From Erythrobacter mangrovi (GTDB taxonomy: Bacteria; Pseudomonadota; Alphaproteobacteria; Sphingomonadales; Sphingomonadaceae), in NCBI RefSeq assembly GCF_013260645.1, contig NZ_CP053921.1:1743763-1807762 (forward strand): 64,000 bases of DNA, written 5' to 3'. The translations under genes were made by a program, and so were the position numbers. Below the pieces are notes generated by a model that was not told where the DNA came from, did no database searches, and saw nothing but the letters and a program-made list of their open reading frames with translations. Below are positions 9,264-42,956 of this stretch, piece by piece (position 1 is the first letter of the stretch; every line of letters starts with the position of its first letter).

Positions 9264-9380
9264 ATTCACGAAAACTGCAGATGACTGAGCGTGCCATTCA
9301 GGGTACGGACAGGCGCGGCTGCGCAATTGGCAGCTCGCCGACACGTTCGGCATCCCCCCAAATCAAGGATAAGATAAGAC

Positions 9381-39190: not shown

Positions 39191-40281
39191 TGGTCCTGAC
39201 CCGCGGCGACGACTACCCGATCCACCAGACCCCCGAGCCGGTCGCCTATTCGGGCACCGATCGCAATTTCTACGACCGCTACTTCTTCAATGGCTATGCC
39301 CCCGATGGCAGCGGGTTCTTCGCCGTTGCCCTTGGTGTCTACCCGCACCTCGACGTGATCGATGCGCATTTCAACGTCATCCGCGGCGGGATCCAGCACT
39401 GCATCCATGCGAGCCGCGAGTTGAAGATGGAGCGTATGGACCTGCAGGTCGGACCCATTCGCATCGAGATCGTCGAACCGTTGCAGCGGCTGCGAGTAGC
39501 AATCGACGATTTCGAGGGGATCTCGGCCGACCTCTATTTCGAAGGGCGCGCCTTTCCGATCGAGGAGCCGCGCTTCATCCACCGTATCGGCCCGCGCGCT
39601 TTCATGGACTATACCAGACTGACCCAGAACGGCCGGTACGAGGGCTGGATCGAGGTCGATGGTGACCGGCGCCTGCTTGCCGAAGGGACCATGGGGACCC
39701 GTGATCGCAGCTGGGGCGTGCGACCAATCGGTGCGCGCGATCCGCAACCGACTCCCGGCCACACGCTTCCGGGCTTCTTCTGGCAATGGACCCCGATTAA
39801 TTTCCCGCAGGGTAGCCTGTTCTTCCACGTCAACAATGATGAGAAGGGCGAAGCGTGGAACACGCGCGCGGCATGGGCGGACGAGGGGGCCCAAGCAGCG
39901 GACCTCACAGAGGGGCATGGAAGCATGCGCACAAGGTTGGACCAGAGCACGCGCTGGCCTTCAGGCGGCACACTTTCCCTTGCAGTGCGTGGGGCACCCG
40001 AGCAGATCAGTTTCGAACCGCTAGGCCGTTTCCAGATGCGAGGCCTGGGCTACACCCACCCGGAATGGGGCCACGGCCACTACAAGGGGCCGCTGGTGGT
40101 AGAGCGCGAGGACATCGAGCTGGCCGATCTCGATCCCTTGCTACCTGAAAACCTCCACGTGCAAATGCCAGTCAGGGTGGTTGGCAGCGACGGCTCGGAA
40201 GGTATTGGGGTATTCGAGCAACTGATCATCGGGCCCTTTGCGCCGCTCGGGCTTGGCGAGTTTCTCGACGGCGCGCGCTAA
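39190..40281 (+). CDS. Unknown protein coupled to the phosphotransferase gene
   Basis: A 363-residue soluble protein with no signal peptide. Blocks such as NFYDRYFFNGYAPDGSGFF, DDFEGISADLYFEGRAFPIE, GTRDRSWGVRP and FFWQWTPINF suggest two beta-rich domains of the lipocalin-like/AttH-CrtC kind (DUF7064/DUF7065-like, from memory). The gene begins inside the phosphotransferase stop (TGATG at 39188-39192), and similar pairs occur in actinobacteria and sphingomonads, so the two proteins probably act on one compound. The conserved Trp, Arg and Asp residues in the second block could be a binding site. It ends in a stop overlapping the convergent transporter gene's stop (40278-40281). Confidence 0.75.
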   Translation: MVLTRGDDYPIHQTPEPVAYSGTDRNFYDRYFFNGYAPDGSGFFAVALGVYPHLDVIDAHFNVIRGGIQHCIHASRELKMERMDLQVGPIRIEIVEPLQRLRVAIDDFEGISADLYFEGRAFPIEEPRFIHRIGPRAFMDYTRLTQNGRYEGWIEVDGDRRLLAEGTMGTRDRSWGVRPIGARDPQPTPGHTLPGFFWQWTPINFPQGSLFFHVNNDEKGEAWNTRAAWADEGAQAADLTEGHGSMRTRLDQSTRWPSGGTLSLAVRGAPEQISFEPLGRFQMRGLGYTHPEWGHGHYKGPLVVEREDIELADLDPLLPENLHVQMPVRVVGSDGSEGIGVFEQLIIGPFAPLGLGEFLDGAR

Positions 40282-41108
40282 CGGGCTACCAAGAGGGTAA
40301 CGACCCCACCAAAGATCAGCGTACCACCAATGATTTTCAGCCGGTCGGCCCTTTCGCCAAGAAACAGGATGGCGATGACCAATGCAAACAGGATTGAACT
40401 CTCTCGCAAGGACGCGAGACGGGGCAGTTCCCCAACCGCATAGGCAGTGAGCGCAAGACCATAGGACAGCACGCCCAACGCCCCGGCAAGCACGCAGGCG
40501 CGCCAGTTTCGCTTGGCATAGTCGACAAAGCCCTGCCCGCGCCATGCGCCGAATGCAGCCCCGATCACGGCGCCAAGCACCAGGAAGGCCCAGGCGATGT
40601 AGGACATCTGGGTAGGTGCGCTCCGCACGCCGCCGGCATCGAGAACCGTGTAACAGGCGACCGCCAGCCCGGTCAGCAGGGAGTAGCCGAGTGCAGCCGG
40701 GGTTAGGTTTCGGCCAATTGCGCTCAGCAGGATGCCAGTGACGACTAGCCCCATTCCCGCTGCGACCGGCAGGGTAATTGCGTCGCCAAGGATGAACACG
40801 CCGCCCATTGCCGCGAAGACTGGTGCAGTTCCGCGCATGATCGGGTAGCTCGCGCTCATGTCCGCCACTTCGAAGGCACGGACCAGCGCGAGAAAATACA
40901 CCGCGTGAACCGCAAGTGACCCAGCAAGCCAGCCCCATGCCCCGTGGGGTAGGGGAACCAAGAAGACTGCAGGAAGGACCAGCAAGCCGCCGCTGAGGTC
41001 GATCAGCGCGCGGCTCGCCAGCTTGTCGTCACCCGATTTGAGAACAGCGTTGACCACGGCATGGATCGCCCCGGAGGCGACCATCATCATCGCGGCGGTT
41101 TCGATCAT
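40278..41108 (-). CDS. EamA/DMT family transporter
   Basis: A 276-residue membrane protein with ten predicted helices in two five-helix EamA repeats. SYPIMRGTAPVFAAMGGVFILGD in the first half and ASLRESSILFALVIAILFLGE in the second are the paired repeats, ending GTLIFGGVVTLLVAR. Such proteins export or import metabolites, often amino acids or nucleosides; the cargo is unknown here. It follows ribH by only 4 bases on the same strand, so it may belong to the riboflavin operon, and riboflavin-related transport is a speculative option. Its stop overlaps that of the convergent gene by four bases. Confidence 0.87.
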   Translation of the reverse strand: MIETAAMMMVASGAIHAVVNAVLKSGDDKLASRALIDLSGGLLVLPAVFLVPLPHGAWGWLAGSLAVHAVYFLALVRAFEVADMSASYPIMRGTAPVFAAMGGVFILGDAITLPVAAGMGLVVTGILLSAIGRNLTPAALGYSLLTGLAVACYTVLDAGGVRSAPTQMSYIAWAFLVLGAVIGAAFGAWRGQGFVDYAKRNWRACVLAGALGVLSYGLALTAYAVGELPRLASLRESSILFALVIAILFLGERADRLKIIGGTLIFGGVVTLLVAR

Positions 41109-41112
41109 GTAG

Positions 41113-41535
41113 TCAGGCAGCGAAGCGCGTCTGGAGGTCGAGCAGCGCCATCGCGGCTTTGGCCGCTTCGCCGCCCTTGTCCTTCTGCGACGGGTCGGCG
41201 CGGACCAGCGCCTGCTCTTCGTTTTCGACAGTCAGGATGCCGTTGCCGATTGCCATGCCATCCATGGTCAGTGCCATGATCCCACGCGCGCTTTCTCCGG
41301 CGACAATCTCGAAATGGTAGGTCTCGCCACGGATAACCACGCCGATCGCGACATAGCCGTCATACAGATCGCTCTCCGACGCGAGCGCGATGGCGCCGGG
41401 CACTTCCAGCGCGCCGGGGACGGTGAGGACGTCCACCTCATGTCCTGCATTGGCGAGCGCAGCACGCGCGCCTTCGACCAGCATGTCGTTGAGATGGTCG
41501 TAGAAACGGGCTTCGACGATAAGGAAACGGGCCAA
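41113..41535 (-). CDS. ribH: 6,7-dimethyl-8-ribityllumazine synthase
   Basis: A 140-residue lumazine synthase. It condenses 3,4-dihydroxy-2-butanone 4-phosphate with 5-amino-6-ribitylaminouracil, the penultimate riboflavin step. The core shows [30 protein letters not shown] (with the catalytic His) and [21 protein letters not shown]. The start is a TTG at 41535; GGAG seven bases upstream (at the end of the ribB-like gene) and the family start [12 protein letters not shown] support it. It lies four bases after the HTH-RibB-RibA-like gene, whose product makes the butanone substrate. The transporter gene follows at four bases. Confidence 0.95.
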
Positions 41536-41539
41536 GTGC

Positions 41540-42811
41540 TTACTCCGGAATCGGGCGTTCGCCCGTTACTGTGATGCCATAGCCCTCAAGGCCGACGACA
41601 TTGTGATGTGAATTGGTGAGCAGTTCCATTTCGTGGACGCCGAGATCGGCGAGGATTTGGGCACCGACGCCATACTCGCGCAGTTCACCGCCATCGGTCG
41701 GACGCACGCCGCCGACTTCATTCTGCAGGCTTTCGGGGCGGTTGGGCATCAACAGCACGACCACGCCGCTACCATTGTCGCCGATCGCCTTCATCGCGCG
41801 CTGGAGCGTACGCTTGCGCTGGCCCGGACGACCGAGCACGTCGTCGAAGATCGAGATACGATGCATGCGCACCAGGGTCGGCTTGCCCGGCTCAACGTGG
41901 CCCTTTTGCAAGGCGACATGCGTGCTGCCATCGACCGCATTGCGGTAAGTCATGGCCCGCCAGTCGCCGCCGTAGTCCGAAACGAACTCGCTTTCGCTCG
42001 CACGCTCGACGAGATGGTCGTGGCGCATGCGATATTCGATAAGGTCACGGATCGTGCCGATCTTGAGGCCGTGGCGGCGGGCGAATCCGATCAGGTCCTC
42101 GAGCCGTGCCATGCTGCCGTCCTCTTTCATGATCTCGCAGATCACGCCCGAGGGGTTGAGGCCGGCAAGCCGCGAGATGTCGACCGCCGCTTCGGTATGG
42201 CCAGCACGGACTAGAACACCGCCGTCGCGCGCGATCAGCGGGAATACGTGGCCCGGCGTGACAATGTCCTGCGCATTGCGTGTCGGATCGATTGCCACCG
42301 AAACGGTGCGCGCACGGTCGGCGGCCGAAATGCCGGTTGTCACCCCTTCACGTGCCTCTATCGAGACGGTGAAGGCCGTTTCATGCCGCGTTCCATTCGA
42401 ACGGCTCATCAGCTGCAAGCCAAGTTGTTCGGTCCGCTCGCGGGTCAGCGTAAGACAAATCAGGCCGCGGCCGTGCATTGCCATGAAGTTGATCGCATCG
42501 GGCGTCGCCATTTGCGCAGGGATGACCAGGTCGCCTTCGTTCTCGCGATCTTCGTCGTCGACCAGCACGAACATGCGGCCGTTGCGCGCTTCCTCGATGA
42601 TCTCTTCGATTCCGACGAGCACCGGTGTCTCGTCATTGGCTTCGAGGAAGCGTTCGAGCTTGCCCAGCGTGTCTGCGGTTGGATTCCAACCGTGGTCGCC
42701 GCAGTCGCGCAAGGTATTGGCGTGGAGGCCTGCAGCACGTGCGAGGCCGGCTCGAGTCATCTTGCCCTCTTCTACGAGGGTACGGACTCGGGTGATGATA
42801 TCAGTAGCCAT
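41540..42811 (-). CDS. ribB: HTH domain - DHBP synthase - degenerate GTP cyclohydrolase II fusion
   Basis: A 423-residue three-part protein. Residues about 1-58 look like an XRE-type HTH ([20 protein letters not shown], then [18 protein letters not shown]). Residues about 65-265 form RibB, converting ribulose-5-P to 3,4-dihydroxy-2-butanone 4-P, with [20 protein letters not shown] and [25 protein letters not shown] intact. Residues about 275-423 match the GTP cyclohydrolase II fold but lack the three zinc cysteines and the EGRGIGL motif (here MPNRPESLQ). This resembles reported RibB proteins with a non-catalytic RibA part, so a separate cyclohydrolase II gene must exist. The upstream region holds paired palindromes over a putative promoter. 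Confidence 0.92.
41598..41609. repeat. Third copy of the rib-operator-like 12-mer inside the ribB 3' end
   Basis: ACATTGTGATGT, the same 12 bases as the core of the palindrome at 42821-42842, occurs in the coding end of the same gene, where it encodes part of SHHNVV. It may be chance or a downstream regulator site. Confidence 0.35.
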
Positions 42812-42820
42812 GCGACTCAG

Positions 42821-42842
42821 ATATCACATTGTGATGTGATAT
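42821..42842. promoter_or_regulatory. Operator-like palindrome 1 (rib promoter)
   Basis: ATATCACAT (42821-42829), TGTG, ATGTGATAT (42834-42842): perfect 9-bp arms. It covers the putative -10 of the ribB-like gene and ends 10 bases upstream of its start codon. Confidence 0.65.
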
Positions 42843-42865
42843 CCAATTCCGCTACGACATTGCAA
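42836..42865 (-). promoter_or_regulatory. Putative promoter of the rib operon
   Basis: On the minus strand TTGCAA (42865-42860), 17 bases, ATATCA (42842-42837); TATCAC with an 18-base spacer is the alternative. Each hexamer lies inside one of the two palindromes. No FMN riboswitch is visible in this short leader. Confidence 0.45.
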
Positions 42866-42868
42866 TGT
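42857..42868. promoter_or_regulatory. Operator-like palindrome 2 (rib promoter)
   Basis: ACATTGCAATGT, a perfect 12-base palindrome, sharing ACAT-N4-ATGT with palindrome 1. Its centre is 31 bp from that of palindrome 1, three helical turns, so both sites face the same side of the DNA. It covers the putative -35. Confidence 0.6.
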
Positions 42869-42880
42869 GAGGCAGGAAAA

Positions 42881-42956
<76 letters not shown>

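Follow-up and report, generated by a model that had tools for sequence, protein, structure and literature searches.

The 64,000-nt stretch of Erythrobacter mangrovi DNA analysed here (contig NZ_CP053921.1, positions 1,743,763 to 1,807,762 of the forward strand; 'the window') codes for HTH-RibBX, a riboflavin biosynthesis enzyme that begins with a helix–turn–helix (HTH) domain. Comparison with relatives and with phages indicates that HTH-RibBX is probably a self-repressing enzyme built from a domesticated phage Cro switch. According to the mechanism that we propose, residues 1–62 would derive from the Cro repressor of a phage, now domesticated, and the 60 bp leading up to the start codon ATG would be a matching operator–promoter of phage type, with two NCAYAT-N4-ATRTGN sites 31 bp apart. 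The RibB homodimer would bring together two HTH domains, which would then occupy the proximal palindrome as a pair; the distal site, on the same face of the DNA, would be taken by another dimer, probably cooperatively. Bound HTH-RibBX would exclude RNA polymerase, such that transcription of ribBX and ribH would fall as the protein builds up and rise upon its dilution. Concentration-sensing autorepression of this kind would give the 3,4-dihydroxy-2-butanone 4-phosphate (DHBP) branch of riboflavin synthesis a set point.

The HTH-RibBX protein and its control region

The features of the gene and of its control region are as follows.

41540–42811, minus strand: HTH-RibBX gene, 423 aa (open reading frame (ORF) and Pfam)
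42626–42811, minus strand: Cro-like HTH domain, residues 1–62 (Pfam matches and AlphaFold)
42032–42607, minus strand: RibB (DHBP synthase) domain, residues 69–260 (Pfam; motifs aligned to solved RibB)
41555–42004, minus strand: X domain, a degenerate GTP cyclohydrolase II, residues 270–419, zero cysteines (Pfam, alignment)
42824–42839, minus strand: proximal operator TCACATCACAATGTGA, 13/14 to consensus (consensus score)
42855–42870, minus strand: distal operator TCACATTGCAATGTCG, 12/14 to consensus (consensus score)
42841–42846, minus strand: predicted −35 hexamer TTGGAT (locus alignment)
42818–42823, minus strand: predicted −10 hexamer TATCTG, 17 bp from the −35 (locus alignment)
41596–41611, minus strand: third operator-like 16-mer, inside ribBX, 11/14 (consensus score)

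The Pfam family DHBP_synthase (PF00926) covers residues 69–260 (E 1.9e-84, 282 bits), the RibB part also scores above the cut-off of TIGR00506, and the GTP_cyclohydro2 match spans residues 270–419. The stretch ECLTGDVFG..CDCG of Mycobacterium tuberculosis RibA2 aligns opposite a cysteine-free stretch of the X domain. We assign the enzyme part to RibBX, a known family for which a crystal structure exists (6mnz, from A. baumannii), because its RibA-like part lacks cysteines and falls far under the cut-off of the GTP cyclohydrolase II equivalog TIGR00505 (43 bits against 205.85), and because the CDCG motif of RibA is found in a separate protein (L002) of the same 3.06-Mb, one-contig genome.

The only HTH match of the window protein itself in Pfam is to HTH_31, at residues 8–60 and sub-threshold. 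When 19 HTH segments from the window, its relatives and phages were searched, 17 matched HTH_3 (best 2.3e-6) and 11 matched HTH_26 (Cro/C1) at E≤0.1; the HTH of the window protein stays below the Pfam cut-offs. Residues 1–62 are modelled by AlphaFold with a predicted local distance difference test score (pLDDT) of 90; comparison of the HTH sequences reveals invariant residues, and the recognition-helix region, positioned by analogy, is H30-A31-N32-T33-L34-R35. An earlier note on this DNA had proposed an XRE-like HTH (residues 1–58), an intact RibB domain and a RibA-like domain without the zinc cysteines. All three proposals hold: the Pfam HTH alignment and the AlphaFold run give an HTH of the XRE/Cro type at residues 1–62, Pfam, TIGR00506 and the alignment to solved RibB uphold the second domain, and the RibA2 alignment and the absence of any cysteine the third.

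The proximal site extends to a 24-bp gapped palindrome, GATATCACAT-CACA-ATGTGATATC, at 42820–42843, and the centre of the distal palindrome, ACATTGCAATGT at 42857–42868, lies 31 bp from the proximal centre, as the earlier note had described. Its statement that each palindrome covers one promoter hexamer was wrong. The proximal 16-mer occupies the 17-bp spacer from TTGGAT to TATCTG, the 24-bp form touching the edge of both hexamers, and the distal palindrome is situated upstream of the −35. Only 6 nt separate TATCTG from the ATG, which leaves no room for a leader or a riboswitch; the ribBX mRNA is therefore predicted to be leaderless, with transcription expected to begin at the ATG or immediately beside it.

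Conservation of the operator was analysed in 119 Sphingomonadaceae genomes, 117 of which have a protein match. They supplied 88 HTH-bearing and 20 HTH-less loci, to which 80 loci of named organisms were later added; the 20 HTH-bearing ones among these include Qipengyuania, Novosphingobium, Erythrobacter, Pontixanthobacter and Sphingobium. The consensus TCACATTnnAATGTGA, with 14 scored positions, was derived from the 88 unnamed HTH-bearing loci and scored in the 360 nt that precede the RibB core, with mononucleotide shuffles as controls. The earlier note had named failure of the palindromes to be conserved before HTH-bearing orthologues as a ground for giving up its enzyme-repressor reading; the reading withstood this check. 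A score of at least 10/14 is reached in all 108 HTH-bearing loci, in 2/80 HTH-less loci and in 176/3760 shuffles; at 11/14 or more the numbers are 105/108, 1/80 and 21/3760. All 20 HTH-bearing loci of named organisms, which were retrieved once the consensus was fixed, score at least 11.

Within the 88 aligned loci, the operator positions C-A-C-A-T and T-G-T-G are conserved at 86–98%. The proximal site starts 27–30 nt before the ATG in 65/88, and a distal half-site is present at 30–33 bp in 60/88 and was not found in 19. T-T-G is preferred 5–8 bp before the proximal site (53 counts at 6–8 bp over the 88 loci) and TA just after it, which corresponds to a 17-bp spacer.

The operator is also specific. 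Three places in the 3.06-Mb genome match the consensus with at most two mismatches, and two of them are the pair described here. There are 27 exact matches among the 119 family genomes, one per genome, and 26 are directly before ribBX. We consider it very likely that HTH-RibBX binds these sites. The sole exact operator outside a ribBX promoter (genome G103, L116 1501–1516) is 1.5 kb downstream of ribBX and precedes an ORF that, by eye, resembles a small membrane protein. The third, intragenic 16-mer of the window lies in the codons for SHHNV; it is probably a coding coincidence, because its score drops to 9/14 in the 95%-identical locus L003. Operator-like matches inside the ribBX coding region show a weak excess in HTH-bearing loci.

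Kinship with phage Cro control regions

In the family genomes, short ORFs matching the HTH alone were found in G017 (88-aa frame) and G036 (67-aa frame), each divergent from a CI-repressor-like ORF. The divergent protein of G017 passes the Pfam cut-off for S24 and, barely, that for HTH_26. Proteins identical to the G017 Cro are encoded by Tardibacter chloracetimidivorans and on an IMG/VR viral contig, and the Cro-like ORF of the Pseudanabaena phage Pan3 is 48% identical to this Cro. The HTH-alignment scans of viral contigs gave 15 and 16 overlapping loci. The final phage set comprises 24 non-identical loci from IMG/VR contigs, a phage collection (Pan3), prophages and an operator-pattern scan (two loci); L160 and L161 come from class-wide matches outside the family.

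The phage Cro-like ORFs from IMG/VR contigs, Pan3 and prophages are 34–59% identical to the HTH of the window, and the kinship extends to the DNA before them. The operator spacing is 31 bp in 19/24 phage loci, a TTG precedes the proximal site by exactly 7 bp in 21/24, the site itself begins at −28 to −30 in 20/24, and it scores at least 9/10 in 22/24; the corresponding values in the window are 31, −7 and −28 for spacing, TTG and site. By sequence, the gene has the paired operator sites over its own promoter that characterize a phage Cro-type module.

A divergent CI-like ORF accompanies the phage gene in 16/24 loci by a motif test; Pan3 (L140) fails this test and matches Pfam S24. Four divergent proteins were scanned with Pfam: three pass the S24 cut-off and the fourth is just under it (22.1 against 23.3), while their HTH matches reach the cut-off at most. 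In Pan3 the Cro-like ORF (L140 4001–4186) is unannotated in the GenBank record, where the annotated ORFs are on the opposite strand, and the gene divergent from it carries an S24 domain. No divergent CI partner lies beside ribBX in the window, where the upstream neighbour is a tRNA-Lys; the switch may therefore work like Cro, but it is not a lysogeny module.

The phage operators are of two main types, CACAT-N4-ATGTG and GCATAT-N4-ATATGC. Phage lambda has two operator regions, OL and OR. In the Tardibacter prophage (L347) there is a second tandem TCACAT/ATGTGA pair, CACATCATAATGTGA...TCACATCCTAATGTGA at 9283–9304 (plus strand), 2.8 kb from the cro pair and in the opposite orientation, which makes it OL-like.

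Residue 35 of the HTH tends to vary together with operator positions 4/13. In the phages, Arg or Gln goes with C/G and Leu or Asn with T/A; Tyr35 is mixed (six T/A, two C/G and one T/G). Arg is found in L154 (NTLRH) and also in L160, which has no proper site. In ribBX, residue 35 is Arg in 88/88 loci and positions 4/13 are C/G in 83/88. The rows are related, so that this covariation is support for, not proof of, a direct contact between residue 35 and the operator.

Proposed autorepression, its alternatives and the origin of the fusion

Because the proximal site takes up the spacer (17 bp) of the predicted leaderless promoter, we expect with good confidence that the effect of HTH-RibBX on this promoter is repression. 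The earlier note regarded the protein as an enzyme-repressor of its own ribBX–ribH operon, and the comparative evidence (conservation, specificity and layout of the operator) supports this view well.

It is possible, although we lean against it, that HTH-RibBX is a ligand-gated trigger enzyme whose RibB or X domain senses ribulose 5-phosphate (Ru5P), flavin or guanosine triphosphate (GTP) and switches DNA binding; such gating would add to autorepression, not replace it. Solved RibB structures bind Ru5P according to their entry titles, known trigger enzymes such as PutA switch with substrate (passages of PMC8249747), and the X domain of S. oneidensis, devoid of cyclohydrolase activity, still regulates RibB by a mechanism given as unknown (passages of PMC10012899). 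However, the proposal of the earlier note that ligand sensing by the X domain serves the HTH finds no support in this form. Median X-domain identity to the window protein is 51% in 105 HTH-bearing proteins and likewise 51% in 20 HTH-less proteins inside Sphingomonadaceae (45% across all 80 HTH-less proteins), and since conservation is the same with and without the HTH, nothing points to the X domain serving it. Phage Cros, moreover, act without small ligands.

The relationship between the ribBX and phage HTHs was analysed with two trees. The first, with 16 phage HTHs including distant ones, requires three label changes; with a distant phage row as its root, it contains no ribBX clade (support 21). 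For the second (58 columns, unrooted), six distant phage rows were dropped and six new ones added, and a single branch with support 98/98 divides 63 ribBX HTHs from 16 phage Cros. With the two groups on either side of one branch, the tree allows the ribBX HTH to be explained by one transfer, the direction of which an unrooted tree does not give. The HTH might accordingly have passed from the host gene to the phages, or both forms might derive from a host XRE regulator. We consider such an origin unlikely: operators of two types occur among the phage forms, most of which have a divergent CI-like partner, and fused HTH-RibBX was not seen outside Sphingomonadaceae in 385 genomes of the class. The four matches above 100 bits in these genomes are Sphingomonadaceae ribBX ORFs, followed by two short ORFs from other families (G472, G392).

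There is a good probability that HTH, operator and promoter are a cassette taken from a phage, and capture as a single piece is the simplest course, because HTH, operator, promoter and start-codon spacing all match. The distribution of the HTH over the tree of the RibBX core takes 13 label changes, of which supported branches force at least six; shuffled labels take 60.9. In our reading, the HTH was captured once and later lost or transferred with the gene several times.

Since the phage operator code is retained, phages may remain targets of HTH-RibBX: binding to the cro promoter and OL-like region of incoming TCACAT-N4-ATGTGA phages could make the host immune, and Cro or CI of a prophage of this type could in turn switch off the host's riboflavin operon, an idea that we hold to be rather improbable. 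Among the matches listed in a 377-genome search there are three unfused Cro relatives, one in a TCACAT-type and two in GCATAT-type prophages; among the same matches, the host of the TCACAT-type prophage (G017) has an HTH-less RibBX, and the hosts with HTH-RibBX (G021, G036) carry the GCATAT type. These three cases fit exclusion, but they amount to no more than a hint, and there may be weaker ones, for example the second matches in G039 and G706.

Activation by the HTH instead of repression appears very unlikely. Some regulators, of the MerR type, activate from spacer sites, and autoactivation would be compatible with the sequence; however, the spacer here has the ordinary length of 17 bp, the recurrent TTG before the site implies a promoter that should work alone, and from what is known of lambdoid phages, Cro relatives of this layout are expected to repress. 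The palindromes sit right behind tRNA-Lys and might be RNA hairpins, as a terminator or processing element of that gene, but a U-run is absent, ARAGORN places a tRNA within 250 nt upstream in just 7/108 HTH-bearing loci and the operator is linked to the HTH, which makes the chance of this negligible. It is hardly credible that HTH and operator are non-functional relics, given the invariant HTH residues and the conserved operator positions, and no points in favour were found.

The riboflavin operon and comparison with known systems

The genes on either side of the control region and of ribBX are the following.

41113–41535, minus strand: ribH (lumazine synthase), the next operon gene, 4 nt after ribBX (ORF and family search)
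40278–41108, minus strand: EamA/DMT-like transporter ORF, a possible third operon gene, 4 nt after ribH (labelled by eye)
42881–42956, minus strand: tRNA-Lys(CTT), the upstream neighbour, outside the switch (ARAGORN, tRNA survey)

The gene ribH is directly 3' of ribBX in 79/106 HTH-bearing and 71/79 HTH-less loci; a relative of the EamA/DMT-like transporter is near ribH in 6/99 HTH-bearing loci. In 40/79 HTH-less loci ribE directly precedes ribBX, and 27/108 HTH-bearing loci keep ribE with the cassette lying in between, which fits an insertion between the two genes. A second RibBX copy (52–64% identity), with a match starting past the HTH, occurs in eight HTH-bearing genomes (G021, G032, G035, G070, G085, G088, G093 and G114). 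Two family genomes, G025 and G067, have no match to the query despite completeness of 96% and 98%.

The FMN (flavin mononucleotide) riboswitch RF00050 is a common control element of bacterial rib genes. The earlier note saw none, and searches of the window and of its own genome gave no match. Under strict filters, by which weak ones may be lost, it was found in 0/119 family genomes, 32/190 genomes of the class (31 over cut-off) and 7/14 control genomes. The HTH is not a one-for-one replacement of this riboswitch, because HTH-less members of the family are without it as well.

If our interpretation is correct, a large family without a detected FMN riboswitch controls vitamin B2 synthesis by a trigger enzyme, and a whole phage regulatory cassette (repressor, operators and promoter), not only a DNA-binding domain, has been captured. 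The related modules that persist in prophages make the recognition code, the regulatory sign and cross-talk directly testable, and the system provides a candidate for a leaderless, autorepressed promoter whose regulator has essentially a single target in the genome. Enzyme-repressor fusions are already known; the fusion of a phage Cro and its operator–promoter to a riboflavin enzyme was not found in searches of the openly licensed PubMed Central (PMC) literature.

The protein shares with the RibBX of A. baumannii (6mnz, 46% identity in the Foldseek alignment), S. oneidensis and A. salmonicida the domain order, the intact RibB and the cysteine-less RibA-like X domain, and its genome likewise encodes a protein with the RibA CDCG motif elsewhere; it differs in the additional N-terminal Cro-like HTH and the operator of its own. 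With the Cro/CI lysogeny regions of Pan3-like phages and sphingomonad prophages it has in common the HTH sequence, the paired sites at 31 bp, the TTG at −7 and a proximal site that starts about 29 nt before the ATG, but it lacks the CI partner and its HTH is fused to an enzyme. Archaeal RbkR, an HTH-riboflavin kinase, also unites a regulator and a riboflavin-pathway enzyme in one protein; HTH-RibBX differs from it in enzyme, domain of life, HTH and operator. In the alphaproteobacterium Wolbachia, the transcription regulators wBmxR1/2 bind the ribA promoter, but, unlike HTH-RibBX, they are free proteins that use another DNA site and raised a ribA reporter (passages of PMC3518464).

As far as the sequence tells, HTH-RibBX has the architecture of a trigger enzyme, an enzyme with a DNA-binding domain whose predicted target is its own promoter. 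PutA, BirA and NadR similarly combine a DNA-binding domain and a metabolic enzyme in one protein, and PutA binds a single target region, the putA–putP spacer (passages of PMC8249747). Any ligand switch would be hypothetical in HTH-RibBX, which also differs from these known trigger enzymes in its unrelated enzyme and its HTH of phage type.
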